64,000 nucleotides of DNA from Natronobacterium haloterrestre (lineage in GTDB: Archaea; Halobacteriota; Halobacteria; Halobacteriales; Natrialbaceae): contig NZ_FOKW01000011.1 of NCBI RefSeq assembly GCF_900112205.1, positions 1-64,000 on the forward strand, read 5' to 3'. The translations under genes were made by a program, and so were the position numbers. The number at the start of each line of letters is the position of its first letter. Within the stretch, counting starts at the first letter, position 1. The notes under the pieces were generated by a model that ran no database searches, was not told where the DNA came from, and saw only the letters and a program-made list of their open reading frames with translations. Below are positions 95 to 17,044 of the stretch, piece after piece.

Positions 95-1177
95 GTTCTC
101 TTCCTGCTGAGCGAGATTGTAGTACTCTCGAATGTACTCGGTGACGTCGTCGTACAGCTTCCGCTCGGCTGGCGACATGTCTACCCCGAGCGCCTCGATG
201 TTTTTCTCGGGAAACATGCGAGTCCCGTCGGTTTCGTACATATCGTCCTTCAGCCGACGGATCATCAGGTCGTCCAGTGCGTCGGGATTGATCTGAGATT
301 CGTGGCTGAAGCGGTAGGGATCAAGCAGGCTAACGAGGAAGTAGAACTGGTCAGACTTCCCCTTGTGGGGTGTCCCGGTCAGCAGCAGGAGCGCGTCGGA
401 GTTCTCGGCGACGGCCTCACCGACCATGTACCGCTGTGTGCGTTCGATCGAATCGTCGCTGGACCGCCGGGCAGTGAGATGGTGTGCTTCGTCGAACACG
501 GCGGCATCCCAGGGAACGTCGAGGTTTCGCAGGGCCTCCAGCATGTCGTCCTGCTTGGCGAAGTCGATGGAGGTGATGATGAGGTCCTCCTGTAGCCAGA
601 CGTTCTGATTCGGGTGGGATTTTCGGTGTGAGCGGACTGTCTCGCGGTCGTAGATGACGAAGTTCCGATCGAACTTCTCGCGCATCTCCTCCTGCCACTG
701 GACGACGAGCGGTGCAGGAGCGACGATGAGCACACGCTGTGCGCGCTCGCGGGCGATGAGTTCTTCGATGACGATGCCGGCCTCGATGGTCTTCCCGAGC
801 CCGACTTCGTCACCGATGAGATATCTATGGTCGTACGAGTTCAGAATCTCGTAAGCCGCCTGGACCTGGTACGGTTCTATCTCAATACGGTTGTTCGTCA
901 GCGACAGGAAGCGGTCGTATCGGTACGCGAGGTCGAGGCGGGTCGCACGTTCTCGGAGGTCGTGGTGAAGCGGGGCATCGATCTGTTTCGCTGCCAAACG
1001 GTCAGCGATGGAGTCGATCCGCTCAATGTGGGGAAGTCCACTGGGCAGTTTGCGAAGCTGTCCTTCTGTGGTGTAGACGTGGAGGAGTTGCCCTCCATTC
1101 GGGCGGTCCTCGATTTTGGTGATTTCACCCTGCCCGCCGGCGAACTTGACGTGGTCACCGACCTCGAAGCTAGTCAT
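80..1177 (-). pseudogene. SNF2/SF2 helicase, truncated by an IS
   Basis: A superfamily 2 (SNF2/RapA/DrmD-like) helicase with only the N-terminal ATPase lobe. It has Walker A GDEVGLGKT at residues 122-130, the DEAH box at 229-232 and a TGTPHKG motif near residue 265. The C-terminal helicase lobe (motifs IV-VI) is missing. The frame ends after NLAQQEEN with four residues encoded by the adjoining IS end. Family members are about 900-1000 aa, so roughly two thirds is lost or lies beyond the IS. The start ATG overlaps the stop of the TBP-like gene (ATGA), so the two were translationally coupled. It is probably the motor of the methylase cassette upstream, related to DrmD of class 1 DISARM or to helicases paired with PglX-like methylases. 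It should be inactive as read. Confidence 0.85.
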
Positions 1178-1719
1178 TTTTCATCCATGAGGGACCTGAT
1201 TTTATTATGAAGTTCTCGGAAGGCTTGCTTAGACCTTGCTTTGCTACTTTCGCCCACAATATTCACCTTTCCAGACCGGAATATCATTATTGTACAATCA
1301 GCTTGGTCCGGTGTATACAAGACCGCGGCAAGGGAGTCCGGGTCATACTCAGTCCTTTCTAAGCCCAATCCCACAGAAATCGAACTTAATTCCAGCTCCA
1401 TACCTAAATCGCCAGAGAGTACATAATTACAGATTTCAAACTCTTGTAGGTTCACAGAGCACTGGGTAATCTCAGACAAGATACTTATCATATTTTCCTT
1501 TGAACAATTGACTCCTTCCCTGGACTTAGAGCCAGTAACAATGAATTTGCCAGTACGGTAGAGGATTGCCAAGCCGTCATCAGTATATAAATATAGGCCA
1601 GGATGCATCTCCGGTTCATACCGAGTATTTCCAGTCAAAGAAGTAGCTAAATAGTTTAAATCAAACTCCTGTTCCAAGAGGCCAACAGCAACGATATTCA
1701 CGGTTTTTAGGTTATCCAT
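1174..1719 (-). CDS. Divergent TATA-binding-protein homologue
   Basis: The 181 residues form two direct repeats of the TBP saddle fold. Repeat 1 runs about 7-85 (YEPEMHPGLYLYTDDG, then YRTGKFIVTGSKS). Repeat 2 runs about 94-178 (SGDLGMELELSSISVGLGLE, YDPDSLAAVLYT, IFRSGKVNIVGESS). Length and repeat layout match archaeal TBP (about 186 aa). Of the four phenylalanines that kink DNA in canonical TBPs, by motif alignment only the repeat 2 one in IFRSGK survives; the others are His, Tyr and Leu. The gene is AT-rich compared with the core genome. It lies between the methylase and helicase genes, overlapping the helicase start by ATGA. It may be a cassette-specific DNA-binding subunit or a dedicated transcription factor; that role is an inference. 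Confidence 0.85.
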   Translation of the reverse strand: MDNLKTVNIVAVGLLEQEFDLNYLATSLTGNTRYEPEMHPGLYLYTDDGLAILYRTGKFIVTGSKSREGVNCSKENMISILSEITQCSVNLQEFEICNYVLSGDLGMELELSSISVGLGLERTEYDPDSLAAVLYTPDQADCTIMIFRSGKVNIVGESSKARSKQAFRELHNKIRSLMDEK

Positions 1720-1761: not shown

Positions 1762-4700
1762 CTAAACCCCTTCTTGCACCGTCTTAATCTTGTCTTCAGA
1801 GAGCCCATAAAGCTCGTAGACTCGGTCGTTGATTTTTTGTTCTAATTTTTTAACTTCTGTTTCTAATTCCTTATATTGGCTCTTCTTCTTCCTGAAATTG
1901 CGGAAGGAGTCTTCAATATCCTCGTATTCAGGAAGGGTGAGTTTTTCAAGACGGTTGATAGGGGAATTCGTCTTAGTCGCCTTCTCACGGAACCCAGCAA
2001 ACCCATCTCCTTTCTCAACGGCGTACGGGACAAATTCCTTCAGAAGATCCTCACGCTCTTGGTCAATTCCTACGAACTCTAGCGCAGCAAATTTTTCTGT
2101 TTCGGTGTATCCCCATTGATCAGTTTCGTAATCGTCGGGCTCCTCTGGCTTGTACCTCGCTGATGCGTATACAGTTGTTTTTGTGTCTGCTGAGGCGACA
2201 TGAACGTCACCAATACGAAGACTGTCCTGATCTTTGCTTGTGGCGCTTAGGATTGTATCTCCGACGCCCTTAGGCGGTTGATACCCTGGAATATCTTGTA
2301 GAGATGGACCCCACGAATAACTACCTAAATAATCAGAGAGATTAACGTTGATCTCGCTCATTTTCTTTTTATTCTCTAGGATGTTATCCACAGCACGGAT
2401 TATTTCTTGATCTACATCTGTCGGAACTTGGAGTTCATGTAGAAAACCCGTTTTGTAAGCCCGAAACCCTCCTCGTTTCTGAGGTGAAATACCTCTGTAA
2501 ATGAACTCTAGAAGTTCAGAATTTAATAATCCAAGTAGGAATTTTAGATCATAATCCTCAGTAACGCGTATGCTCTTCACCTTCGTATTAAAGTAGTAAT
2601 TTTTGTCACCTGTATCTGCAGTAAAGTTACTCTTATCGGAGATCTCGGGTGTCAAAATCTTGGGGTTCTGGTAAATGTCGGAATGCCTCTCACACCAGAG
2701 TTCATACCAATTCCGATTCGAATTCATCACATGAGTCCGACTTCGAACTTTCTCCTCATTTTCTTTTAAATACTCCCAAGTATTCGGGAACTCAGTTTTC
2801 ATTCGTCTTTCTGGGATAACCTGATTATTTTCATAGGGGTAGATCGATTTTAGATCCGTTTTTGGAGGTTCGTACCGTTTGACATCTTGACCCTTCAAGA
2901 CTGGTTTTAGAATTTCTTCTTCAAGATTATATTCCCCCACGGTTTCAGGGTCCACGAAATAGACTTCATCCTTAGATGTGTCAATACCTTGGGATATAGA
3001 CTTAGTTACATTATCCAAGGTGACAAACTCACCGCTCATCGAGTCAAGTACATTTGCTACTGGAGCAGGAATTACGTCCCACGGCTTTTTGGAGAGTTCT
3101 GAATTCTTGAGTGTATAATTCTGCATTTCTTCTCGATCAAGAGTTTCGTAATTATTTGAATCAGGGGTATAAACTACAAACTCATCATCATTAGCTGAAT
3201 TAGATAAAGAAATTATACATACGTAGTTTGTCGCTTCACCGAACACCTGAACATCGGATAGTTCAACAATTTCGGTTACGTGGGAGTGTTCGCTGATGAC
3301 CTTTCTGAGACCTTCCCCGTAGGGCCTTCTCAAGAACATGGATGGCTGTATGTATGAGATTGAACCATTACAGATCTCGATTCCCATTTCTGTGAATAGG
3401 CAATAAATATCCCAACGTCCAGTCGTCGAATCATACTTTGTCTTAAAGTATGATTTTTGGAAGTCATTGAGAGACCGAGAACGAATGTAAGGGGGGTTTC
3501 CAATTACTGCGTCAAATCCGGATTTGTCCTTTTGACTACCATCGGTACCATAGAATACCTCAGGATACTCAAGCTTCCAGTGGAAGTAGTAGTCCTGTGA
3601 TGCCCATTTCTGAGCCGTACGGAACCATTGCATCCCTTCAATTTCTTTCCATTTTTCATCCTCATCCAAAGCAGCAGCCATTCTCTCGTAGGCATCACTA
3701 GGTATCTCACCTAAGCCAAAATCGGCTGCTGTAGCTACATTTGCTATCGCCTCAAGTCGCTGCCGAAGCTTGTTCTGTTCGAATTCGTCGTACTTGGACT
3801 CCATCTCCTTGACATCCGCGAGTTCCTGGTTCTCGATGGCGATGAAGTCCTCGTAGATTCGCATCAGCTGCTCCATCGTCCCCTTCCGGGCAATACCGAA
3901 GTCTGCGAGCGAGGCGTTCTGCCCGTCGCCACCGCTATCTGACTCCAGTTCCTCTATTTCCTCTATATCGCTCCCAACGAGTGAATTCCCGGTCTTCAGA
4001 TGGTGGTCAAGGAACGCGAGCGGTTGTTCGGCTGCAAGAGTCCGAAGCCACAGTGACACCTTCGCTAGTTCCACAGCGAGTGGATTTAGATCCACACCGT
4101 AGATACAACGCTGGGCGACTTGCCGGCGTGCCCAATTGATATCGTGCTCCTCATCAACCGTCTCGATACCTTCTTGTGCTGCCTGCTTTTCTTGGGCGTC
4201 AATGATCTCACGGGCCAAGTAGTCAACCGCGCTAGTGAGGAAGTGACCGCTCCCCATCGCTGGGTCTAAGATCCTCAGTTCGAACACTCTTTCAGCGAAT
4301 TCAGCAGCGAATCCCCCTTCATCGAAGGCACTTTGACCGGCAAGGTCCATTCGAATGTCTTCGACGAGCGGTCCCAGCGTGTTCTCAACGATGTACTCTA
4401 CAACGTACTCGGGCGTGTAGTACGATCCAGTGGCTTTCCGTTCGCCGCTATCTGTCGTAAGGTACACTTCATCTTCCTGCACGACAACGTCGTCGTCCTC
4501 ATCAGCGCTTACATACTCACCATCGTCCAGCGCCAAAGGCTCGTCAGCAACGTTTAATTGATACTCCAGTAGTCCCTCGTAGATACTTCCGAGGTGACGG
4601 ACGTCAAGTGAGGAGTAATCGACGAAGATCTTTCCGCCACCGTTGCCGTTCTTGCTCCGCGTCAGGAGTTCAATGACCTTCGCCAGGTAGGCATCACCGG

Positions 4701-5874
4701 CCGTGTGTTCGGCGAGGAATCGAGCTTCCGGGCTGTCGTCTTCGTCGGGATCAGTCCGGAACAACCCGCCGTTGTACGCCGGAATGTAGAGATCTTCTTC
4801 TGGGATGCCTCGGGACTTGCTTCCTTGGTCAATGAGCTTGAACAGCTCGTCCAGTCGGTCCCAGAGGTTGTCTTGCCAGTCGCGGTACTTCGGATCACCA
4901 CTGTCGATCTCCTCGGCGACCTCCTGCTTGAGCGAGTTCAGGCTGTATGAGTGTTCATAAATCTCGTTGTCAGTGTCGAGGAGGTCACGACCCTCGGCTT
5001 CTGCGTACAGCACGAAGATGAGCCGGTACAGGTAGATGAGCGAGGAGTCGTGAATCAAGTCGAGGTCGTCCTCACTAAGGTCGTTATCGGGGTACTGTAG
5101 GAACCCCTCCGATAAGATCTTGATCGCCTCGTAGATGTTGTCCTGTAGGTCCTCTCCCAACTCCTGAGCGAAGACGTTGGACTCGTCGTAGACGTCATCG
5201 AGAAAACTGTCCCCGCCGGCGTCTTCGAGGAACGCCTCGTGTCGGAAGAAGAGGTAGAAGTACTTAAAGTCCTCAAGATCGCCCTTCTCAATGATAGCCG
5301 GGAGATCGACCTCGTAGTAGGAGTCGAGACGGTGGCTCGTGGGACCGTAGTAGAGCCGCCACTTCTTCCCGTTGGTCAGAACGGCCCACCGAGCAGGAGT
5401 CTCCTGCAGGTAGACGTGGATCTGGTAGCTCGGGTTCTCGAAGTCGCGTTCGTGTTCGCCGCTGCCGCGCGTATCGAGCGGACGTCCCCATCGCTTCGCG
5501 TCGGCGACAGCAGTCGCGTTCTTGTAGAAGTCTCCACCCTCTTCCCGCCGCTCGAACGCTTTCCGGGCGGCATCCTCGGTTTCGAAGAACCCGTAGTCCG
5601 GGCGGCGCTGGGTGCGACTGGTACTTTCCTCGACCTCGAAGGGGATGCCCAACTTCCTGAACATCGGCCGGATGAACTTCTCTTCCAGCTGCGACTCGTT
5701 GCGCTTCGGGGCAGTCGCCTTTTCGCGCTCCCAGAGGTCTTTGATGTCTTCGTATGCAGCTTCCAGTTTTTCGTCGCTGACCTCGTCCCATTCCTCCGTT
5801 TCGGGGAGGTGCTCGTCGAGGTAGTGGTTGGAGAACAGGTCCCGGTTCGTGCGGTAGGTGAGTGCCGTTTGCAT
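1762..5874 (-). CDS. Eco57I/PglX-like nuclease-adenine methyltransferase
   Basis: A 1370-aa single-chain restriction-modification-type protein. The N-terminus carries a PD-(D/E)xK-like nuclease signature: PD at 92-93 and D125-A-K127 within VADAKRWG. A helical region leads to the N6-adenine methylase core, with motif I DPAMGSGHFL from residue 537 and motif IV NPPY at 793-796. The last 500 or so residues look like a TaqI-like target-recognition region followed by a coiled coil. It should methylate adenine in a specific site and may cut unmodified DNA (type IIG), or act as the modifier for the neighbouring helicase as PglX and DrmMI do. DNA for residues 1 to about 700 is GC-rich, while the part covering NPPY and the recognition domain is clearly AT-rich, suggesting exchange of the specificity half. 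It starts three bases after the AbrB-like stop. Confidence 0.88.
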   Translation of the reverse strand: MQTALTYRTNRDLFSNHYLDEHLPETEEWDEVSDEKLEAAYEDIKDLWEREKATAPKRNESQLEEKFIRPMFRKLGIPFEVEESTSRTQRRPDYGFFETEDAARKAFERREEGGDFYKNATAVADAKRWGRPLDTRGSGEHERDFENPSYQIHVYLQETPARWAVLTNGKKWRLYYGPTSHRLDSYYEVDLPAIIEKGDLEDFKYFYLFFRHEAFLEDAGGDSFLDDVYDESNVFAQELGEDLQDNIYEAIKILSEGFLQYPDNDLSEDDLDLIHDSSLIYLYRLIFVLYAEAEGRDLLDTDNEIYEHSYSLNSLKQEVAEEIDSGDPKYRDWQDNLWDRLDELFKLIDQGSKSRGIPEEDLYIPAYNGGLFRTDPDEDDSPEARFLAEHTAGDAYLAKVIELLTRSKNGNGGGKIFVDYSSLDVRHLGSIYEGLLEYQLNVADEPLALDDGEYVSADEDDDVVVQEDEVYLTTDSGERKATGSYYTPEYVVEYIVENTLGPLVEDIRMDLAGQSAFDEGGFAAEFAERVFELRILDPAMGSGHFLTSAVDYLAREIIDAQEKQAAQEGIETVDEEHDINWARRQVAQRCIYGVDLNPLAVELAKVSLWLRTLAAEQPLAFLDHHLKTGNSLVGSDIEEIEELESDSGGDGQNASLADFGIARKGTMEQLMRIYEDFIAIENQELADVKEMESKYDEFEQNKLRQRLEAIANVATAADFGLGEIPSDAYERMAAALDEDEKWKEIEGMQWFRTAQKWASQDYYFHWKLEYPEVFYGTDGSQKDKSGFDAVIGNPPYIRSRSLNDFQKSYFKTKYDSTTGRWDIYCLFTEMGIEICNGSISYIQPSMFLRRPYGEGLRKVISEHSHVTEIVELSDVQVFGEATNYVCIISLSNSANDDEFVVYTPDSNNYETLDREEMQNYTLKNSELSKKPWDVIPAPVANVLDSMSGEFVTLDNVTKSISQGIDTSKDEVYFVDPETVGEYNLEEEILKPVLKGQDVKRYEPPKTDLKSIYPYENNQVIPERRMKTEFPNTWEYLKENEEKVRSRTHVMNSNRNWYELWCERHSDIYQNPKILTPEISDKSNFTADTGDKNYYFNTKVKSIRVTEDYDLKFLLGLLNSELLEFIYRGISPQKRGGFRAYKTGFLHELQVPTDVDQEIIRAVDNILENKKKMSEINVNLSDYLGSYSWGPSLQDIPGYQPPKGVGDTILSATSKDQDSLRIGDVHVASADTKTTVYASARYKPEEPDDYETDQWGYTETEKFAALEFVGIDQEREDLLKEFVPYAVEKGDGFAGFREKATKTNSPINRLEKLTLPEYEDIEDSFRNFRKKKSQYKELETEVKKLEQKINDRVYELYGLSEDKIKTVQEGV

Positions 5875-5877
5875 GTC

Positions 5878-6069
5878 TTAAACTGGGGTAACGATGAGGA
5901 ATTCTTCGGAATCCTTGCTGTCGATCAGTGCGTGTGCGACTTCCTTGGCGTCAGCGACGTCCACTTCGACGTCGTCGCCGATGTCCAAGCCGAGTTTTTC
6001 CAATTCAGACCCGGAGACGTTGATCCGGCCCGAATTCCCGGTGTTTCGACCGACTTGTTTCCGGGTCAT
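5878..6069 (-). CDS. AbrB/SpoVT-like small protein
   Basis: A 63-aa protein beginning MTRKQVGRNTGNSGRINVSG, followed by LEKLGLDIGDDVEVDV, the swapped-hairpin pattern of AbrB/MazE DNA-binding domains. The ATG at 6069 is preferred over an upstream in-frame TTG at 6090, because a TATA-like element about 30 bases upstream would then give a leaderless transcript. It is the first gene of the cassette and ends three bases before the methylase start. AbrB-like proteins often autoregulate their operons, so it may control expression of the methylase, TBP-like protein and helicase. No operator is evident. Confidence 0.75.
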   Translation of the reverse strand: MTRKQVGRNTGNSGRINVSGSELEKLGLDIGDDVEVDVADAKEVAHALIDSKDSEEFLIVTPV

Positions 6070-6095: not shown

Positions 6096-6105
6096 CCCAT
6101 ATAGT
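6096..6105 (-). promoter_or_regulatory. TATA-like promoter of the methylase cassette
   Basis: On the minus strand CTATATGG sits about 27-36 bases upstream of the AbrB-like ATG at 6069, preceded by AAAGA. Archaeal initiation about 26 bases downstream would fall within a few bases of the ATG, giving a leaderless mRNA for the whole cassette. Assigned by spacing only. Confidence 0.45.
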
Positions 6106-6215
6106 CTTTACTTAGTCTACGAAGTGATCGTAGAACCCCTTTTGAGAGAGTAAAATCAGAAGGGGATTGATGCGTAGATAAGACGTGGAACAAAGAGGTA
6201 GAAGTGAGCTAAACA

Positions 6216-7886
6216 CTACGTAGTCGCTGCTCGCTCGCACTGTTTCGCACTTACAACCAGTTGCTCAGAAATCTCTAGCCACTCTTCCTCCGATGCCACG
6301 TCTTCTTCTACGTTTTCCACTACCGCGTCTACTACTTCTTCCGGCTCATACCGAGCCCAATCATACAGATTGTTGATCTTCAAATCTTGTTTAATATCCT
6401 TGTATGCTCCGTTGAATGCGTCCTCCTGTTTTGGAGTGGCTTCAACAAACACATTTGCAGGAATAGCAGCCAGCAATTCGTTCACTTCCACCTTTCTACC
6501 CAGCAAGTTGTCTATCGCAGTCTCAGTAATAGCACGCGACCCCGTCCCAGTCTCAAGGAACTCGATCAGATCTAGTTGCTTCTTTGCCTCGTCTGGCACG
6601 ATAGCCTCTACATCACTCCGCTCAGGTTCATACGCTGGGTCGGTGATCTCCAGTTTATATGCAGTAACGAATCCAGACTCAATCTTATTATCAGGTATGA
6701 ATTTGAGAACGTCCTCAAGAAACTCGTCGGCAGAAGAAAAGTGGCGCTCAGTGAAGATGATGTGGAACGTAAGCTTGATAGCCTCAGGTAGATCAGAAAC
6801 CTCACTTTCGTTGCCTTTTCTCCCGAAATCAATGTGGTTTGGGTACTTGTCTTGCAGAGTCTCTCTGAGTTCTGGACTCTGATATTTTGAGAGGACGCCT
6901 CCCCATGACATCAACAGATAGGCATCCCTATTCTCGAATTCAGAGCGTACTCGCTGCTTTTCTTTCTCAATCAAATCGTGAACGTCTTTGGCGACAGCTG
7001 ATTGGTCTAATTCACCTCGATCGACCACTTCGATAATGGTGGAGAATAGTTCTTCAGAGAGCGCATGACGATCGCGGAAGGGCAGGAAGCTTTCAATGAA
7101 AGCCGAGTAATATTCATTCAGGTCGTCTTCAGGTGTGCCAGTTAATGGATCAGCATAGAGTGAGTGGTCATGATGAATCGCATCGTAAGCGTTTCCATAG
7201 GCAGTAAGAAGCCATTCAGCGGTTTCGTTCTGCTGTTCAAAATCGCAGCTTGAGGTCGATAGAGCACGAGTGATTCCTGATTTGATGTCGTGAATTGTCT
7301 CCCCGGTTTCCAGAGAATCACCTGCTTTGACGTGTTCACGACAGAAAACAAGGATGAGACGGATTTTCTCTTCATCTTTAGATTGTTCCTCAAACAAGAT
7401 ATTAGCGATGCGCCGGTAGCCATCTCGCTTAAATAGTGAGGTTTCTGTAGAAATCTCGTCGGCCAATTGTTCTCTAACCGCAGGACTGGGTCGGAGTTCT
7501 TCGTCCATTGCCAGTTCGTCGAACGCAATTGTTTCGAAGTCTGAAACAATCTTCTGGGCTTGTTGGATGTCTTTTGTCTCCTCCCCAAATTTAACGAGGA
7601 AGTCAAAAGCAACAATACGTTGGGCGAGATCGTGAAGAGTACACTTAGTGGCTCTGGTACCTGGTTTTACAATTCGATGCCAGATCAAGGTTCCGTGCGT
7701 AATGCCGGATTCTTCAATGCGGTTATATCCCCACCAAAATCCGAGAACGGAACAAACCACGAGAACTATGGTTTCTTCAAGTGTCAGTGATATCACGTTG
7801 TACCTGATGTTGAGATACAGTGATGTGGCGAGAGTAACTGCTGCTACTTCAGCTGAAAGGCCAGTAAGCGGATTTTCTCTCTTCAT
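6216..7886 (-). CDS. Two-TM membrane-anchored protein, unknown function
   Basis: I do not recognise a family for this 556-aa protein. Two hydrophobic segments at about 9-27 and 36-53 should anchor it in the membrane. The remaining 500 residues are acidic and mostly helical, with no nuclease, kinase or ATPase motif visible. The DNA is AT-rich relative to the core genome. It lies 200 bases downstream of the CBASS effector gene and about 150 bases upstream of the AbrB-like gene, all on the same strand. The gap before it contains a possible TATA element (CTATAAT near 7945), so it may have its own promoter. Its place between two defence modules suggests a defence or membrane-damage role, but that is context only. 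Confidence 0.7.
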   Translation of the reverse strand: MKRENPLTGLSAEVAAVTLATSLYLNIRYNVISLTLEETIVLVVCSVLGFWWGYNRIEESGITHGTLIWHRIVKPGTRATKCTLHDLAQRIVAFDFLVKFGEETKDIQQAQKIVSDFETIAFDELAMDEELRPSPAVREQLADEISTETSLFKRDGYRRIANILFEEQSKDEEKIRLILVFCREHVKAGDSLETGETIHDIKSGITRALSTSSCDFEQQNETAEWLLTAYGNAYDAIHHDHSLYADPLTGTPEDDLNEYYSAFIESFLPFRDRHALSEELFSTIIEVVDRGELDQSAVAKDVHDLIEKEKQRVRSEFENRDAYLLMSWGGVLSKYQSPELRETLQDKYPNHIDFGRKGNESEVSDLPEAIKLTFHIIFTERHFSSADEFLEDVLKFIPDNKIESGFVTAYKLEITDPAYEPERSDVEAIVPDEAKKQLDLIEFLETGTGSRAITETAIDNLLGRKVEVNELLAAIPANVFVEATPKQEDAFNGAYKDIKQDLKINNLYDWARYEPEEVVDAVVENVEEDVASEEEWLEISEQLVVSAKQCERAATT

Positions 7887-8085: not shown

Positions 8086-8703
8086 TCAGTTTTTTCGATA
8101 CAGCTCTAGAATCCCGTGTGTCCCGCGCTGATCCGGGCGATTATAGTACTTTCCCTCCAATTTATCCTCCTCTTCATCGTACTCCAGAATAGCAGACCCG
8201 TAGTGTGGATCCAAGTCCTCATTCGTCTGGCTGCCTTCATTCCAATAATTGTACGACAATGTGGGCCAAGCTTTCTCTTTTACTAAGATTGTTGCTGCTC
8301 GGCTATACGACGGTGATTCTGGCCCATCCAGTGTTACAAGGATTTTGTCCCACGTTTGGTCAATGTCGATACTGGTCTCCTGTTTCGTCAACCCATCTAT
8401 CTGCTGACCCGTAGTGACAATCTGATCCTCAGGTATAAGCTCTTCATCTGCCGATGTGTAGAGATATCCTTTCCACGTCCCGTTCAAGTCTGGAACAGCA
8501 ACCAGTCCGTGGTCGTGCAGTAAGTCCCACTTCCAGAGATACTTTGTGAACAAGAGATAAAGAATTGTGGATATAACACCTAACGACAACCCGAGGATAG
8601 GTCCGAAGAGTTCTATGGCACCAAGATAAATTACCGCGGTGAGAATGCCGATGAGGATGTATCGACGGTGGCGATTGGTCTGATCAGTGGAAAAGTTGTG
8701 CAT
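8086..8703 (-). CDS. Cap15-like CBASS effector (2TM plus beta-barrel)
   Basis: A 205-aa protein with two N-terminal transmembrane helices (about 15-31 and 36-54), then a beta-rich cytosolic domain opening PDLNGTWKGYL (71-81). This is the SMODS-associating 2TM, beta-strand-rich effector family known as Cap15. In that family the beta-barrel binds the cyclic nucleotide made by the partner CD-NTase, and the TM helices then disrupt the inner membrane and abort infection. The gene overlaps the 3' end of the CD-NTase gene by 20 bases, so they are co-translated. The family call rests on architecture, the NGTWKG motif and the partner gene. Confidence 0.85.
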   Translation of the reverse strand: MHNFSTDQTNRHRRYILIGILTAVIYLGAIELFGPILGLSLGVISTILYLLFTKYLWKWDLLHDHGLVAVPDLNGTWKGYLYTSADEELIPEDQIVTTGQQIDGLTKQETSIDIDQTWDKILVTLDGPESPSYSRAATILVKEKAWPTLSYNYWNEGSQTNEDLDPHYGSAILEYDEEEDKLEGKYYNRPDQRGTHGILELYRKN

Positions 8704-9616
8704 TCTTTTTCTTGTCGTACCAGTCGTTCCACATCTCTCGAAGCCGGGTTATGAGTTCGTTTGCTTCGGTTGTATTCCACTGTGTGTTGCTGTCACCAAA
8801 TAACGGCTCCATTTCGGAGACCTGATCAAACTCGGTGAAGTCTGCATTTTGGAGATGCGTGAGCGCTTCATCAAAACGATCTGACCGACTAGATCGTTTT
8901 AGAATGTCCTCCGGGACATTATAGATGAGGCATTCGATGCCGTACGAGTGAGCGCTGATCGTCCAAAATGTATCAAAATGGTCGTTGTAGTAGTCTCGGG
9001 CGTTCTTGAAGATTCGTACAGTCTCTTTGTAGTTGCTATGCTTGTCGCACCCGTTTTTGTAGTGTTCTGTCGGGTAGTTAATGATGATTTCGTCAGAGAA
9101 ACGTGGTTCGAAGGCCATCCCGGAAATATATTCTCCCTGTTCGTAACCCGGATAACTGGTATAGTACCGGTGTTCGATACATGGGACGAGATCAACATCT
9201 ACACTGAGTCGATTACTTTCACTGTTGATTTCGATGGCCTTCCCATTCCACGAGATGTAACTGCTATCGAACTGTTTCGTGAGCCACTGCCAGACGTCGT
9301 CTGCAAACTCGTCGTATCCGTAATCAGGTGTGCCATGGTGACTATGATACAGTTCTCTTTCGTCGTCATCCAATTCGGATAGATCTCGCGTCCATGCCGA
9401 TGTGAGTTTAGCAATGATATCGACGTCGCTACTCCCATAGGTGTGTGTGGTATTCTTGTATGACCCCTGTCGAAGAACGGTGAAGGAGCCGTCGCTTTGC
9501 TTTACCGGGGATCGATCCATAGTAAGTAACCACTCGATTTTATCGGCGGCCTCTTTGGATCCTTTGTCAGCACCTGTTTTGTGCCAGTCGTTGAACTTTG
9601 ATTCCGGAATAGGCAT
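8684..9616 (-). CDS. CBASS cyclic-nucleotide synthase (CD-NTase)
   Basis: A 310-aa cGAS/DncV-like nucleotidyltransferase. It has the activation-loop motif GSYKNTTHTYGSSDVDII (51-68) with catalytic D64 and D66, and a third acidic residue in SVDVDLVPC (D140 or D142). Length and motif spacing match the SMODS family. On sensing phage infection it should join nucleotides into a cyclic messenger for the Cap15-like effector encoded next. Which clade it belongs to and which bases it uses cannot be told here. GGAGGG lies ten bases upstream of the ATG. There are no E1/E2/JAB or HORMA/TRIP13 accessory genes, so this reads as a minimal type I CBASS. Confidence 0.88.
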   Translation of the reverse strand: MPIPESKFNDWHKTGADKGSKEAADKIEWLLTMDRSPVKQSDGSFTVLRQGSYKNTTHTYGSSDVDIIAKLTSAWTRDLSELDDDERELYHSHHGTPDYGYDEFADDVWQWLTKQFDSSYISWNGKAIEINSESNRLSVDVDLVPCIEHRYYTSYPGYEQGEYISGMAFEPRFSDEIIINYPTEHYKNGCDKHSNYKETVRIFKNARDYYNDHFDTFWTISAHSYGIECLIYNVPEDILKRSSRSDRFDEALTHLQNADFTEFDQVSEMEPLFGDSNTQWNTTEANELITRLREMWNDWYDKKKNAQLFH

Positions 9617-9878: not shown

Positions 9879-12800
9879 CTACAAATCCGTCGATAGTTGT
9901 GCGTTGATTAGACTACCTGCATTCATGATCGCCTCATGAACTGCCGAACGAATTTTCTCGGTCGTAACCTCGTAGGCATCTTCCACATCGTTGGGTTCCC
10001 AAGTGTGCGTGCGATCGGCGTCGGTGAAGAACAACGTCACTAAAACGTCACGCTCCGGATCGGCCTGCATCAACGAGGCCGCGTATGCCATCACCTGTGG
10101 CTCATGGTGAGCAGCGCGTCGATCGAGGAACTCCTCAATAGTTTCGTCGTCCCCCTTCCGATCCGTCTTGTAATCGACGACGTGGTACTGGTCTGGTGTG
10201 ACGACCAGGTGGTCGATGTATCCCTGGAGTTCGCCGTTCGGGAACGTCAGTTCGATCGGGAACTCGTCGTACGTGGCCAGCGTCTCACTCTGTTCGTGAA
10301 GATCCTCGACAAACGTGATCGCACACTCGGCCGCACCTTCGATCGCATCGAGATCACCGCTACTCGCCTGAAGTATCTCATCTGAATCGACCGATCGTTC
10401 CTCTGCGAACACCTGTTCGATAAACGATCGCCACGTCTGGCGAGGCGGTCGGACCTCACAGAGTCGATGCACTGCCTGACCGAAGAACGCTGCCGAGATG
10501 CCGGGCTGTTCGTCCGACGGCGATCGGTCACTCGTCTCTCGCGTCTCCGCTTTCTCCGTCGTAGTTGGTCGAATGCACCGCTCGACGTCGTCCACCGTTA
10601 GCTCCACGCTCCCGTCTTCGAGTCCGGTGAGGGCAGACGGAGAGAGCCTAATTTCCCAGGGAAGTTCGTACTCGTACCTGGATCGCTGCGTCTGCGGCTC
10701 GATCTGCTCGACGTCGCCGTCGTACGTTCCGGTAACGGGCGGGAGTCGAACGGTGAACTCTCCTGTTCCGGTTTCACCGTCGAGCTGGTAGTCTAACTCC
10801 GTCGTGAATCGACCGTCCTCTTCGAGTTTGGTCCAGGACTCGACGGCGTCGTCCTCGACGCCGAACAGCGTCGGCTGGATCCAGTCGCGCATCGAACCTG
10901 CCTCCGTCGGAACTGGCGGCGTGACTCCCGTCTCGCTGTCGCTATCGCTCGTGTGTTGACCGGTAAGGATGAGGTGGTCTTCGGCTCGCGTACACCCCAC
11001 GTACAGGACTCGCTTCTCCTCGGCGCGCTCTTCGGCTCGACGTCGCTCTCGTGCGATGTCACGCAACAGCGTCCCCTCGTCGTCCTCACCCCAATCGCCT
11101 GGGACGTTGAGGCCGAGGACTGGTCGCCGTTCGCCGTCGATCGGGACGAGTTCGAACTCGACAGAGCCGTTGGCAATCCGGCCGCGATCCGTGAACCCCT
11201 TGCTGACTCCGGGGACCACGACGACGGGGAACTCCTGACCCTTCGCCTCGTGGATCGTCATGATTCGAACGCCGCTTCCCTCCGCAGCGACGTTCGCCTC
11301 CGCCTCGGTCCGACCCTGTTCGGATTGCTCGTTCAGCCGAGCGACGACACGGTCCAGACTCGGGACGCCGGCGACGTCGAATTCCCGGAGCTTCTCGCGG
11401 AACTTGTCCACGTTGGCGACGGCGGCGACGCCTCGCTCGTCGGCGGTGATCGACACGAGATAGCCGGTTTCCTCGACGATTCGATCGGCGAGTTCGACCC
11501 AGCTTCCGACCCGCGATCTGGTCGTGCTATCAGCCGTTCCAGCGTACTCTCTCCAGCGTTGGATGTCCTCCGCGACGCTCCGTACATCTTCCACGTCGGT
11601 GGTTCGAAGGTTCTCCCACAGCGACGTTCCGGGTTCGTGAACGCGGGCGATCGTCTCGTCCGATAACCCACACAGCGGTGATCGGAGCGCAGCGTACAAC
11701 GTGACTTCGTCGGACGGGTCAGCGAGCGCACGGAATAACGAGACGAACGCCCGGATCTCCGGCGTCTCGAAAAAGCCCTCGCCTTTCACCACCGTGTAGG
11801 GGATCGAAGCCGCCCGTAACGCGCGTTCGTAATCCTTCAGATCGCTCCGCGAGCGAATCAGCACCGCAACGTCGTCGGGTTCCACCCGACGGCCACGACC
11901 GTCAGATTCGACGACGTTGGTTTTGTCACCCGAGTCGGCATCGTCAGCAGTGACTCGAACGTCCCCGTTCAGCAACTCGACGAGCCGACTGGCGATCGCG
12001 GTCGCTTCGATGTCGGCCGGCTCCGACTCCGGCAGCTCGTGAAGATCGTGATTCGGTTTCAACAGGCGATCGCGTAGATCGTCGTCCACGGGAACGGGCA
12101 CGTATTCGACGATGGGATCGATTTGCTGGTTGTTCTCTCGGCCAGCTCGAAGCGGCCCTGCGACCGCTTCGAACGGCTCCTGCCCTCCGTACTCGAACAC
12201 GTGGTCGAACAGGCCATTGATCGCCCCGAGGGGCTTCGGCAGCGTCCGGAAGTTCGTCGCCAGCGGTGGGCCATCGTCGGGCGTACCGTGTCGTACGTTC
12301 GCGGTTCTGAGGGTGTCTCGGGCGGTATCGAAAACGGTGACGTCGGCGTCGCGGAATCGATAGATGCTCTGTTTCGAGTCCCCGACGATGAACACGTTAT
12401 CGGCGTCGAACGGACGGCCAGTAGACGAATCCCGCACAGTCGAACTGCTGACCAGTGCCTTCACCAGTCGCCACTGAAGATCGTTCGTGTCCTGGAACTC
12501 GTCCACCATCACGTAGTGCAGGTCGGATCGCAGGCGTTCGACTTCGGTTTGGTCTCCGTTTTCGAGAAAGTCGATCGTGAGTCTGATCAGGTCGTCGTAG
12601 TCCAGGACGCCACGTCGTTCCTTTCGACGATCGTATCGGTCGAGAGCCGTTCGCGTGAGAGAGGCGAGCGACCGCAGGAGTTCGTACGCCTCTCGGTCGG
12701 GCGCGATGTCCGAGTCGATCGGCTGTCCGGCAGGGCCCACCGCGGCGAGCACTGCCGTCATCGCCTCCGAGTATTGAGCCTCGACATCGCCGCTCCCGGT

Positions 12801-13808
12801 TCGGAAGCCCTTGTTCCCGAAGTACGTCCCCTCGGCGTACGCTTCGTTGTCACCGTTCGTGAGCGCGTCGCAGAGATCGATACACAACGAGAGTCGTTCG
12901 AACGGAGTGAGCGATTCGACGGGGACGCGGGATGCTCGGTCGAACCACTCTTGCAACGGCCGTCCAACGCTTTTCATCGATCGGGTTCCGATTCGATCAC
13001 ACACGGCGTCGTCTTGGAGTATCTCGCACAGCGTTTCGACGTCGCTCATCACCTCTTCGAGCATCGTCTCGGGATCGGCGGAAAACGGGTGAATCGAGAC
13101 GAGGAAGGCTTCGTACTCGGTTTCGTCCTCAAACCGATCGAAGTCATCGATCCATGCCTCGGTCATTTCGCGTTCCGAGATGAGTCCGCTGAGGACCTCC
13201 CCGAGTCTCGATCGATCGAACAACGGCGCGAGCGTCCGTACTTCGGGTGGCTCCTCTTCGATCAACTCCGTGACTACCGTGGCCGCGAGCAATCCGGCGT
13301 CGTCCTCCTCGATAACCTCGAACTGGGGATCGACACCCGACGTCGAGATAGCGTATTCCTGGAGGATACGATTACAGAAGCCGTGGATCGTGTGGACGTA
13401 GCTCGATTCGACGCCGTCGGCGGCGGCGCGCCACAGTTCCCATCGATTCGGATCGTCGATCTCGTCGAGGTGATCGCGGAGTTTCGACCGGATGGACGCT
13501 TTCAGGTCCTCTGCGGCGCGCTCGGTGAACGTCGTGACGACGATTCGTTCGGGAAGCCGCCGTGCCTCCTCGGGATCCGAAATCCGTGTAATGTCGTCCG
13601 GAATTCGGTAAGAGGGTTCGCCATCGTCTACGTCTTCGGCCAGTGTTTCGGGACCATCGATGTGTGCCCGAAGAATCGTTACGTAGCGCTCGGTGAGTGT
13701 CGTCGTTTTGCCCGTCCCGGCCCCTGCCTCGACGCTCACGTTTCGGTCGAACGTCCGCGCTGCCGCCTGCTGCTCTGGTTCGAGCGTGAACGCGTCGTCG
13801 TCGCTCAC
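9879..13808 (-). CDS. AddA-like UvrD helicase-nuclease
   Basis: A 1309-aa superfamily 1A helicase. Visible motifs are Walker A in EAGAGTGKTT (K34), motif II MVDEFQDTND, motif III VGDSKQSIYRFRDAD, motif V IMTIHEAKGQEFP and motif VI LYVGCTRAEDHL. A C-terminal RecB-type nuclease has GYID (D1199), DYKT (D1212, K1214) and the following Q-x3-Y motif. It should unwind and degrade DNA from double-strand ends together with the upstream AddB-like protein. The two genes overlap by four bases (ATGA). Archaea normally resect ends with Mre11-Rad50/HerA-NurA, so this is an accessory bacterial-type machine and may also degrade phage DNA. All key residues appear intact. Confidence 0.92.
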   Translation of the reverse strand: MSDDDAFTLEPEQQAAARTFDRNVSVEAGAGTGKTTTLTERYVTILRAHIDGPETLAEDVDDGEPSYRIPDDITRISDPEEARRLPERIVVTTFTERAAEDLKASIRSKLRDHLDEIDDPNRWELWRAAADGVESSYVHTIHGFCNRILQEYAISTSGVDPQFEVIEEDDAGLLAATVVTELIEEEPPEVRTLAPLFDRSRLGEVLSGLISEREMTEAWIDDFDRFEDETEYEAFLVSIHPFSADPETMLEEVMSDVETLCEILQDDAVCDRIGTRSMKSVGRPLQEWFDRASRVPVESLTPFERLSLCIDLCDALTNGDNEAYAEGTYFGNKGFRTGSGDVEAQYSEAMTAVLAAVGPAGQPIDSDIAPDREAYELLRSLASLTRTALDRYDRRKERRGVLDYDDLIRLTIDFLENGDQTEVERLRSDLHYVMVDEFQDTNDLQWRLVKALVSSSTVRDSSTGRPFDADNVFIVGDSKQSIYRFRDADVTVFDTARDTLRTANVRHGTPDDGPPLATNFRTLPKPLGAINGLFDHVFEYGGQEPFEAVAGPLRAGRENNQQIDPIVEYVPVPVDDDLRDRLLKPNHDLHELPESEPADIEATAIASRLVELLNGDVRVTADDADSGDKTNVVESDGRGRRVEPDDVAVLIRSRSDLKDYERALRAASIPYTVVKGEGFFETPEIRAFVSLFRALADPSDEVTLYAALRSPLCGLSDETIARVHEPGTSLWENLRTTDVEDVRSVAEDIQRWREYAGTADSTTRSRVGSWVELADRIVEETGYLVSITADERGVAAVANVDKFREKLREFDVAGVPSLDRVVARLNEQSEQGRTEAEANVAAEGSGVRIMTIHEAKGQEFPVVVVPGVSKGFTDRGRIANGSVEFELVPIDGERRPVLGLNVPGDWGEDDEGTLLRDIARERRRAEERAEEKRVLYVGCTRAEDHLILTGQHTSDSDSETGVTPPVPTEAGSMRDWIQPTLFGVEDDAVESWTKLEEDGRFTTELDYQLDGETGTGEFTVRLPPVTGTYDGDVEQIEPQTQRSRYEYELPWEIRLSPSALTGLEDGSVELTVDDVERCIRPTTTEKAETRETSDRSPSDEQPGISAAFFGQAVHRLCEVRPPRQTWRSFIEQVFAEERSVDSDEILQASSGDLDAIEGAAECAITFVEDLHEQSETLATYDEFPIELTFPNGELQGYIDHLVVTPDQYHVVDYKTDRKGDDETIEEFLDRRAAHHEPQVMAYAASLMQADPERDVLVTLFFTDADRTHTWEPNDVEDAYEVTTEKIRSAVHEAIMNAGSLINAQLSTDL

Positions 13809-16800
13809 TGTTCGTTCACCCCCGCTGTCGGAATATAGTTCGGAACGCCATCGTCGATGATCGTCTCGTGGATCTCGTGGCGACGGTGATGGCGAACGTC
13901 ACACGCGTCGCGGTAGTCACAGTATTCGCACCCGGCCGAATCCGGACCGAGAATGGTCGGGATGAACGTCCCTTCCCGTACCGCCGTCGCAACTCGTTCG
14001 ATACGGTCACTCACCTCCTCGCGGAGGAACGCGTGGAACTCCTCACGGCTCTCGAATTCGAGGGTCCGATACCGACGCAACGGATCCTCCGTCTCGTGTC
14101 GGTAGTAACTCGCGTCGTCTTCTGCACCGATCGTGCCCGCCCAGTACGAGATCGACGAGTCAGGATCCACCTGATAATATGACGCTCCCACGGCCTCCCC
14201 GTCGAGCGCCTCTTCGGCCATTAGAAGGTACGCCGTGAGCTGGAACGCGTACCCGTCGAGTGTGTCCCCTGTACTCGGCGTGCTTCCCGTCTTGTAGTCG
14301 TACGCCACGAGGCCACCGTCCGCCGTGACGTCGATACGATCGATCTTCCCGTGAAGACTGACGGAACTTCCAGGAAGCTGAATCGGATCGGGCGAGATCA
14401 CGTTCGCATCGGGATCGTCGGCGTCGATCCCGACGTGCGCTTCGAAGTACGTGGGCTGTGCCCGCGTCGCCGACAGCGCCACCTCCGCATCGAGGAACCG
14501 CCGGAACAGCCCCGCGGGTCCGTCCGGATCGCCGTGAGCGTTCCCCTCTACTTCGAGTCCATCGAACAGCGATTCGATCCACGTTCCGTGGAACACTGTC
14601 GGATTCGCGTCCAGGTCGTCCAATCGCTCGACGGCGACGTCGTACAGAACGGCCTGTGCCTCCGAGAGTGTCGCGTCGGTAACCGATCGATGGCCGGCGG
14701 CGATCCACTCTCGGTAAAACGTTTCGAGCACGTCGTGGACGTAGTTCCCGGCGTCGAGCGCGTTGGCTTCGATCGTGATTTCCTCGTCGGCATCGATATC
14801 CAGAACCGAGTTCATGTAGAATTTGAACCCGCAGCCAGCGTACGTCTCCAGCCGACTCGGACTGAATGGCGCGTTCCTCTCGCGGAGCTCTCGAACGACC
14901 TCCGATGTCACGCGCCCATCGAACTTTCCGACCTCCGCTCTAGCACGTGCCGAGGCGAGTTTCACACCGCGTCGGAGACGAGACGTGACGTCGGCCTCGG
15001 GTATCTCGATGTCGAACGCATCGGCGTCGGCGTCGATCTGATCGTAATTGATCCCACCCGTTTCGAGCGCTTCCGCGAGCGATCGATGAACGTCTTCTCT
15101 GCTCGCCGGGGGAGCAACGTAGCGCTCCCTCGACTCCGTTTCAGTATCGCTCACCCGCTGGAGTTCCTTCAGAACGTCAGCCGGAACGTACGGGTCACCG
15201 TTCGCGTTTCGTTCGGGTCTGGACAGGTGGAGTTGAGCGTCACTGGCCAGTAACAGACCGAACGTGTACCGTGCCTGTCGGACGGGATCTGCGGACTGGA
15301 AATCCACGTGAGATTCGTTAAGTCTCCGCGTAAACGCGAGACGTCGAGCCGGCGACGGAGTATGATCGGTCGTCAATCCGGGGATGAACACGTGTGAATA
15401 GGGGTTCCACGCCGCCTCGGTCGGACTACACACCCGGACGCTTCCGGACGCCCTACCCACGGTGTTCTCGACCGTAACCTGTTCGAGCGCTCGTCGAAGC
15501 CCTTCAGCGTCATTTTCGCCGTCCATCGAGGCCAGAGAGTCACACACTTGCGCGGAAAGGGTGAGGGCGGACGTCTCACGGGCACGTTCTCGCTCGGAAA
15601 AGGGAAACTCGTCATCGAGTTCGAGACCACTCGTATCGATTGGAACACCGAGTGATTCGAACAATGCCGCTCGTGCGCGCCCATGATCAGAACGCTCGGC
15701 GAACCGCTCGCACGATGTTGCGACTGCCTCGACGATCTCGTCGGCAGGTGAGTCGAGATGCGATTGAAGCGCTTCGATCCGGGTCGATTCCAGTCGTCTC
15801 GCTTCCCGGATAATCTCGCTCACGCTACCATCGTCGGAAGGATTGACGAGCGGGTTTGCTAGCAGCCGGCAGAGCGGTTCCTGCCGATTCGGCTCAGTGC
15901 CGAGATCCAACGCGGCCTCGAACAGTTTCCCGGTCGTCGTCGCAAAGAACGGTCGCGGGAGATCGTAATTCACTGGGACGTCCGCTGCGTCGAGGGCTTG
16001 CCCGATCCGTTCCGCGTACGTATCTGAGTCATACACGGCGACACAGATTTCGTCGGGATCGACACCTTCGGCAATCAGCGAGCGTATCTCGCGGGCGATT
16101 CCACTCGTCTCGTGTCGAACTGTTGGGTACGATAGAGATTCGACGTCGAGTTCCGTGGTTCGTTCGGACGGTGACGGTGAGCCAAACCGATACAAACGTC
16201 TTGCGACATCGGTACTCGTGGACTCTACAGCGGTCGATGAATCATCTGATCGCTCAGGTGGCTCGAACCCGAGTGACTCGTACCACGTGTGAACCCGTGC
16301 AAGCGCTCGGTCAACGCCACTCGGAACCTCCGAGTCAGTCACCCGGGCGCAGACGACGGCGGTATCGTACGTCGAAGCGAGCGTGTCGATCAGATCCCGT
16401 TCGAGCGGCGACAATGTCTGGAATGCGCCGACGATCACGACGTCCGTGGCAGAGAGTACAGCAGAACACAACTCATCGCCATTCAGAATCACGTGCGCGT
16501 ATCGTTCACTCCGAAACGATTTGCGCTGCTTCAACGAATTCTCCCGAACGAAGTGCACTTCCTCAACAAACGTAGAGAGCGGTTCGACGAGATCGTCGAG
16601 CCCGACTTCGTTCAACCGCTCCACCACTGCCTCCGGCGTGTTTAGACCAGCGAACTCCAAAAGCGAGAGGAGCTCTTCGGCTTGCTCGATGAGTCCAACG
16701 GTTGGACTGTCTTCGGTGAATAACGGATTCTCGGGTGTATCGATACGCGTGAGAGCCGTTTCGACGATCCAACGGCGTTCTTCACTCGATACGTAGGTCG

Positions 16801-17044
16801 ATTCACCCTCGTTAGTCGATGCTTCGTACAGTCGGTCAACGATGCCGTCGAACGTCGTAAGGTCTACCGCCAATTTTGAGCCGTGTTCCATCCACGATTC
16901 GGCGACCGTCTCCCTATCCACCTCTGGCGGGCAGACATACATAACCGAATGCGGGAGCCCCGATGCTCTGTTTACGGCCCACTGAAATGCACTGCTTCTT
17001 CCTCGATGTGTGTTGGCGGAAGAGAACAGACAGCGAGTTGCCAT
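13805..17044 (-). CDS. AddB-like nuclease with iron-sulfur cysteines
   Basis: A 1079-aa AddB/RexB-type subunit. The N-terminal half resembles an inactivated SF1 helicase. The start (SSANTHRGRSS) has no proper Walker A, so it probably scans or binds DNA rather than acting as a motor. The C-terminal part is a PD-(D/E)xK nuclease with GKID (D902), DYKTG (D916, K918) and QLTAY. Cysteines C738, C1039, C1042 and C1048 (CEYCDYRDAC) match the 4Fe-4S staple of AddB nuclease domains. It is first in the operon with the AddA-like gene. Lack of an active helicase but presence of a nuclease is the normal AddB arrangement, which argues for a functional pair. Confidence 0.88.
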   Translation of the reverse strand: MATRCLFSSANTHRGRSSAFQWAVNRASGLPHSVMYVCPPEVDRETVAESWMEHGSKLAVDLTTFDGIVDRLYEASTNEGESTYVSSEERRWIVETALTRIDTPENPLFTEDSPTVGLIEQAEELLSLLEFAGLNTPEAVVERLNEVGLDDLVEPLSTFVEEVHFVRENSLKQRKSFRSERYAHVILNGDELCSAVLSATDVVIVGAFQTLSPLERDLIDTLASTYDTAVVCARVTDSEVPSGVDRALARVHTWYESLGFEPPERSDDSSTAVESTSTDVARRLYRFGSPSPSERTTELDVESLSYPTVRHETSGIAREIRSLIAEGVDPDEICVAVYDSDTYAERIGQALDAADVPVNYDLPRPFFATTTGKLFEAALDLGTEPNRQEPLCRLLANPLVNPSDDGSVSEIIREARRLESTRIEALQSHLDSPADEIVEAVATSCERFAERSDHGRARAALFESLGVPIDTSGLELDDEFPFSERERARETSALTLSAQVCDSLASMDGENDAEGLRRALEQVTVENTVGRASGSVRVCSPTEAAWNPYSHVFIPGLTTDHTPSPARRLAFTRRLNESHVDFQSADPVRQARYTFGLLLASDAQLHLSRPERNANGDPYVPADVLKELQRVSDTETESRERYVAPPASREDVHRSLAEALETGGINYDQIDADADAFDIEIPEADVTSRLRRGVKLASARARAEVGKFDGRVTSEVVRELRERNAPFSPSRLETYAGCGFKFYMNSVLDIDADEEITIEANALDAGNYVHDVLETFYREWIAAGHRSVTDATLSEAQAVLYDVAVERLDDLDANPTVFHGTWIESLFDGLEVEGNAHGDPDGPAGLFRRFLDAEVALSATRAQPTYFEAHVGIDADDPDANVISPDPIQLPGSSVSLHGKIDRIDVTADGGLVAYDYKTGSTPSTGDTLDGYAFQLTAYLLMAEEALDGEAVGASYYQVDPDSSISYWAGTIGAEDDASYYRHETEDPLRRYRTLEFESREEFHAFLREEVSDRIERVATAVREGTFIPTILGPDSAGCEYCDYRDACDVRHHRRHEIHETIIDDGVPNYIPTAGVNEQ

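Follow-up and report, generated by a model that had tools for sequence, protein, structure and literature searches.

A distinct branch of haloarchaeal TATA-binding proteins linked to methylase-based defence systems

We describe a distinct branch of haloarchaeal TATA-binding proteins (TBPs), here termed the class, that is devoted to methylase-based defence and is broader than any one cassette. Its linkage to DNA methylases is firm, and from it we infer a mechanism: the genes almost always lie beside DNA-methylation defence genes, so they probably serve as a portable switch for those systems. Our preferred reading, to which we assign a probability of about 0.55, is that class TBPs are portable, accessory, TFB-recruiting regulators of methylase-based defence systems. 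The near-exclusive tie gives a concrete and testable role to the TbpC-type TBPs, so far an unexplained share of the haloarchaeal transcription-factor expansion. If class TBPs are indeed regulators, archaea would have brought in a general transcription factor family again and again to govern restriction-type immunity, for which we know of no earlier case, and defence loci could be picked out by a simple residue signature in both archaeal genomes and viruses.

The window, by which we mean the whole stretch of DNA analysed, covers the initial 64 kb of contig C26, and it opens on part of a minus-strand cassette. Its largest gene (1762-5874) encodes an adenine DNA methyltransferase of 1370 aa, PglX/DrmMI-like and with a TaqI-like specificity domain, for which Pfam finds Eco57I (132 bits) and TaqI_C and PADLOC gives DrmMI as the best score (346 bits). 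The gene for TBP1 (1174-1719), a divergent two-repeat TBP of 181 aa that we treat as an optional slot gene, starts 42 bp past the methylase gene and shares an ATGA overlap with the start of an SNF2 helicase gene (80-1177), of which only the first ~360 codons are present and which PADLOC scores as BrxHII, HmaA and DrmD, HmaA ranking second. Positions 1-94 are the end of an insertion sequence (IS) that splits the helicase gene, with an inverted-repeat end common to the start of contig C12, and the stop of the helicase ORF at position 80 falls within this fragment. An 8-bp target-site duplication, AAGAGAAC (95-102), is found again where C12 begins, adjoining the IS end in inverted orientation. 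The C26 and C12 flanks join in frame; the helicase has therefore been broken by an IS here. Its remainder lies on C12 (L007:122-1960) and is overlapped by a second TBP gene, TBP2 (L007:1957-2502), with the Phe pattern YYFF. The operon is headed by a small AbrB-like ORF (5878-6069, minus strand; called from 6090, with relatives conserving the ATG at 6069), which has no Pfam match and received its AbrB label by eye. The full cassette order is AbrB-like gene - methylase - TBP1 - helicase - TBP2. The ORF map and Pfam confirm the original prediction of a TBP gene between a PglX-like methylase and a helicase with an ATGA overlap; the gene order stands, but the helicase proves to be only partial, cut by the IS, and a second TBP lies on C12, outside the window. 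An uninterrupted methylase - TBP - helicase - TBP arrangement is found in another genome (L091), and Halorubrum cibi has two intact TBPs with the helicase missing between them.

Several neighbours of the cassette may be recorded here. Beside TBP2 (L007:2710-6846) lie two genes, one for restriction of the GmrSD type and one for an Mrr-type endonuclease, and a DUF262 gene likewise adjoins a TBP in Halorubrum lacusprofundi pHLAC01. That plasmid bears a complete cassette (HLAC_RS18250, RS16000, RS16005 and RS16010), in which HLAC_RS16010 is a class TBP, and a strain without pHLAC01 has been described (PMC10544981). On the minus strand upstream of the cassette is a two-gene CBASS (8086-9616), with a CD-NTase (8684-9616) and a Cap15-type 2TM effector (8086-8703) identified by PADLOC/Pfam; between it and the methylase cassette lies a 556-aa protein (6216-7886, minus strand) with no Pfam or PADLOC match. 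Two large proteins (9879-17044, minus strand) appear by eye to be an AddA/AddB-type helicase-nuclease, and in H. cibi two proteins of like appearance come after the cassette (L011:10200-16545).

TBP1 matches PF00352 in two stretches at 111 bits (cut-off 22.9), in keeping with a two-repeat protein, and its AlphaFold2 model (pLDDT 86.8) is a predicted TBP saddle that matches the TBP structures 1ais (TM 0.77) and 1vok (0.86). Alignment to the canonical TBP of its own genome bears out the earlier claim that three of the four DNA-kinking Phe are replaced: the intercalating positions read H, Y and L, with only the fourth Phe kept (HYLF), whereas TBP2 reads Y, Y, F, F in the same comparison. TBP2 has the TbpC-like pattern of a lost N-terminal and a kept C-terminal Phe pair; in TBP1 a single C-terminal Phe remains. 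TBP1 may also have lost the ability to recruit TFB, because the EPEQ of its repeat-2 TFB stirrup has eroded to DPDS; TBP2 retains EPEQFPG. As had been supposed, TBP1 is not an ordinary haloarchaeal TBP of the tbpE/tbpX kind: in a tree of 115 TBPs it falls outside the 40-row canonical branch (support 99/92), on the methylase-linked side, whose base is weakly supported (58/88), and it has its methylase within 6 kb. The possibility that the gene is unique to this locus, which the original prediction had named as a point against itself, was rejected, but the only close orthologue seen was that of Halorubrum cibi (64-65%).

The linkage to methylases was counted in two samples. A search of 391 genomes of the taxonomic class yielded a first 60 loci, picked by similarity to TBP1, and in 47 of them a methylase ORF lies no more than 6 kb from a TBP. 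Because these loci had been chosen by similarity to TBP1, we drew a separate systematic sample, 39 genomes taken at fixed intervals (G010 to G390), which holds 94 TBP loci and, after merging, 116 N6-type methylase loci. Here 14 of the 94 TBPs have a PF02384/PF07669 methylase no more than 5 kb away, as compared to 0.93 expected from genome sizes (Poisson P 1.6e-12); the converse count is 14 of 116 methylase loci with a TBP that near, so most methylases manage without one.

Phylogeny separates the linked from the unlinked TBPs. From 122 TBP ORFs, seven were kept out of the tree as duplicates (two from L012, L114 and L115), as a fragment or broken (L068_3 and L050), or as being of fusion length (L057); 40 of the remaining 115 form the canonical branch, and the 75 on the other side make up the class. 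A methylase ORF lies within 6 kb of 70/75 class members and 0/40 other TBPs, in a strict count that treats as unlinked three rows hand-labelled methylase-linked for the tree and Phe counts (L007, L042 and L051), and that includes two rows placed in the class by tree position and labelled 'no' in the tree and Phe counts (L019 and L077). Each of the five rows lacking a methylase ORF has its own circumstances: for L007 the methylase lies across the IS break, L051 lies at the edge of its contig, the contig of L019 measures 3 kb, L042 stands after what remains of the same helicase, and L077 adjoins an HmaB/DUF1156-type methylase and McrBC, a type outside the query set. Among the tree rows that come from the systematic sample (51 of its 94 TBPs), a methylase is nearby for 16 of 18 class members as compared to 0 of 33 others. 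Mapped on the tree, the methylase-nearby label changes 3 times, versus 34 in shuffles, with 0 of 500 shuffles as low. The class likely has a single origin, yet this is unproven because the deepest fork of the tree is weak (58/88). A class profile run against 294 genomes of the phylum gives, among the matches listed, ten rows at 243-285 bits, all haloarchaeal, and beyond those ten nothing above 192 bits. We also noted six viral contigs, probably marine (L162-L167, with L162 and L163 near-identical), whose TBPs look FFFF; none has a methylase directly adjoining the TBP, and in one a C5 methylase lies ~5 kb off.

Class members carry a residue signature confined to one half of the protein. All ten columns that discriminate the class from other TBPs fall in repeat 1, among them F42Y, F59Y and L57T; F42 and F59 are both intercalating positions of that repeat, and several of the ten face the minor groove in yeast TBP. 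The N-terminal pair is Phe in just 5/73 and 6/73 class rows. In repeat 2, Phe 3 and 4 are retained in 68 and 71 of the 73 rows, and the stirrup EPEQ, which binds TFB/TFIIB in known structures, is kept position by position in 69, 73, 70 and 69 of them. As full patterns, YYFF occurs in 48/73 class rows, as compared to FFFF in 38/42 other TBPs. Repeat 1 has been re-specified, with the intercalating Phe pair and TFB stirrup of repeat 2 kept. This pattern agrees with a protein that would still engage TFB and half a TATA element but read the remaining half in another way, and it agrees less well with one retained solely as a structural component of an enzyme complex.

To learn how often the cassette carries a TBP, we inspected the surroundings of all 34 loci with a helicase of at least 75% identity, obtained by a helicase search of 382 genomes (our own genome counted once). 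Downstream of the helicase a complete TBP is present in 20/34 and a fragment in one, with none in 13, including one locus (L141) with only ~730 bases beyond the helicase gene; the downstream TBP is therefore not an obligate subunit. Among 18 loci with the helicase at 51-61% identity, 0/18 have a TBP of their own after the helicase, L148 has one in the slot between methylase and helicase, and L050 has a broken, reversed TBP. That slot, which the original prediction proposed to check as the constant place of the gene, is filled in nine loci (the window, L011, L091, L122, L123, L131, L136, L141 and L148), seven of which also carry a downstream TBP, the commoner position. Slot TBPs are of at least three dissimilar kinds (Phe patterns HYLF, HYIF, FFSP, GAFF, RFFF and YFFF), whereas YYFF and EPEQFPG occur in 21/21 complete downstream TBPs, H. 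cibi included, several of these being near copies; two separate TBP subclades occupy the downstream position of the DrmD-like cassette. With slot TBPs so varied and a downstream TBP in only part of the loci, the TBP is thus a frequent yet optional accessory of the cassette. In two loci (L091:7091-7648 and L131:2821-3369) the slot TBP is FFSP, with the N-terminal Phe pair kept, a mirror of the downstream YYFF of the same cassette; in such cassettes the two could be complementary partners.

The methylase-helicase pair on which attention had centred is only one setting of the branch, which also accompanies type I restriction-modification (RM), BREX, type IIG and N4-cytosine RM systems. Besides the DrmD-like cassette of the window, class TBPs lie beside an HsdM/HsdR type I system (L046), after a type I R gene in Halobacterium DL1 (annotated 'TATA-box-binding protein C'), beside BREX-1 PglX and PglZ (L059), beside BREX-5 in Halococcus dombrowskii, and with an HmaB-like methylase and McrBC (L077). 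In halovirus HRTV-9 a type IIG enzyme comes just before the class TBP, and in halovirus HJTV-2 the TBP accompanies an N4-cytosine methylase and an Eco29kI-like nuclease. Our system-type labels are crude, divergent type I loci falling under 'other' and the BREX-5 locus L116 under 'DrmD'. TBPs that are 81-91% identical accompany type I RM (L038 and L039) and DrmD-like cassettes (L041 and L042), and such swaps of near-identical TBPs between systems fit a portable regulator. The diversity of partners, two haloviruses included, suits a regulator better than a fitted subunit.

One conserved promoter element was found in the cassette family, and it accompanies the AbrB-like gene, not the TBP. The palindrome TAGTCT-N6-AGACTA, fused to a TATA-like stretch and present in the window as AGWCTAAGNAAAGACTA (6102-6118, minus strand), lies ~30-50 bp before the small AbrB-like gene in the window and 18 related loci, and looks like a dedicated operator, a putative assignment. 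It was at first seen as exact in six loci, and our own genome has one exact copy plus two places with two mismatches. As a TBP target the palindrome was rejected: it accompanies the AbrB-like gene in six cassettes that have no TBP, and H. cibi has both TBPs, yet neither the AbrB-like gene nor the palindrome. Cassettes with and without a TBP differ in the palindrome, but kinship confounds this difference and we made no use of it. By eye, no common promoter motif was seen in 73 stretches upstream of class TBPs.

In the regulator reading, class TBPs would still bind DNA and TFB via repeat 2 and would activate or repress, in a specialised way, the promoters of the cassette or those of invading DNA; they would thus be the archaeal equivalent of the bacterial restriction-controller (C) proteins. 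TBP2 would be the typical member, and TBP1, its stirrup eroded, an optional extra copy that perhaps modulates TBP2 or pairs with it. Of the options first put forward, the conserved residues agree best with a private transcription factor, but the dedicated TBP promoter was not found and the sole conserved element tracks the AbrB-like gene, which counts against a regulator. So do the 13/34 close cassettes lacking a downstream TBP, the eroded stirrup of TBP1 and the lack of an apparent phenotype on deletion of tbpC in Halobacterium NRC-1. More speculatively, and in our estimation improbable, the half-rebuilt TBPs that many kinds of defence cassette bring along might, with host TFB, form a separate transcription-initiation layer for immunity, opening promoters unserved by the housekeeping TBP, possibly in response to methylation state or infection.

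The least improbable of the rivals, though still unlikely, is an antiviral or decoy TBP, whose half-rebuilt saddle would bind viral or foreign promoters together with TFB and block or misdirect transcription beside restriction. Retention of the TFB residues and half the DNA face, loss of the canonical N-terminal half, and the presence of class TBPs in defence cassettes and plasmids agree with such a role; against it, haloviruses carry class TBPs themselves, along with RM genes of their own. The other option first put forward, a DNA-bending or recognition subunit of a restriction/methylation complex, could draw on the ATGA gene overlap and the apparent translational coupling. A fixed role of this kind is disfavoured by the 13/34 close cassettes with no downstream TBP, whole or fragment, by partner enzymes unrelated in kind among which near-identical TBPs change places, and by the conservation of TFB-contact residues that a subunit would not need; we regard it as quite unlikely. 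Slightly lower again we would place decay into non-functional copies, left open for TbpC in the available part of PMC4230888. The lost Phe pairs, the strong divergence of TBP1 and a tbpC deletion with no laboratory phenotype are what it would predict, and it may still hold for some slot copies, but the F-to-Y replacement is uniform (YYFF in 48/73) and both YYFF and EPEQFPG are retained in every one of the 21 complete downstream TBPs. Chance, finally, seems very improbable as the source of the linkage: TBP paralogues could pile up on plasmids and defence islands, TBPs being on 76 plasmid records and defence genes being clustered, yet non-class TBPs lie near methylases in 0/40 cases, and operon overlaps and conserved class-specific residues speak against mere hitchhiking.

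The branch can be compared with several described systems. By title and abstract opening we found no published report of a TBP-methylase link, which may be published in the subscription literature, outside our scope; the main text of a haloarchaeal RM gene survey (PMC6471742) does not contain 'TATA', nor do those of PMC8651126 (haloviruses) and PMC12839542 (BREX) contain 'TATA' or 'TBP'. Closest to the class are the TbpC-like haloarchaeal TBPs of Becker et al. 2014 (PMC4230888), described in the part available to us as a paralogue clade without the N-terminal Phe pair, its role left open; they share the signature of a lost N-terminal and kept C-terminal Phe pair, and that part mentions no genomic connection with methylases and allows that TbpC may be non-functional. 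Halobacterium NRC-1 deleted for tbpC showed no apparent phenotype, according to the accessible portion of PMC2121645. The annotation 'TATA-box-binding protein C' is carried by class members in Halobacterium DL1 and Halococcus; TBP1 diverges further than TbpC does.

According to the sections seen of a 2025 preprint (PMC12458937), TBPs also occur in the bacterial TALON and TOTE conflict systems, which resemble our cassette in encoding a TBP within a conflict or defence operon, but combine it with a TPR-cold-shock fusion, an effector or YprA-like helicase, and a nuclease; neither a TPR-cold-shock protein nor a YprA-like helicase appears in the Pfam/PADLOC results for the scanned neighbours, obtained with general models. 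The cassette also recalls DISARM class 1 and BrxHII-type pairs, its methylase scoring best as DrmMI and its helicase as BrxHII, HmaA and DrmD. It differs from DISARM class 1 in carrying TBPs and in the absence of drmB (MZB/DUF1998) from the cassette, the PF09369 matches in our own genome being all on C21 and none on C26 or C12; moreover, the helicase of the close relative L091 scores 447 bits against the NCBIfam DrmD cut-off of 610. As to Hma, the helicase has HmaA as its second score, and the general-model scan of the neighbours showed no ATPase. The likeness to the C proteins of bacterial RM systems lies in the proposed role: a small regulator of transcription, portable and moving together with RM genes. 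A class TBP would differ from them in being a paralogue of a general transcription factor, whereas C proteins are helix-turn-helix repressors or activators.
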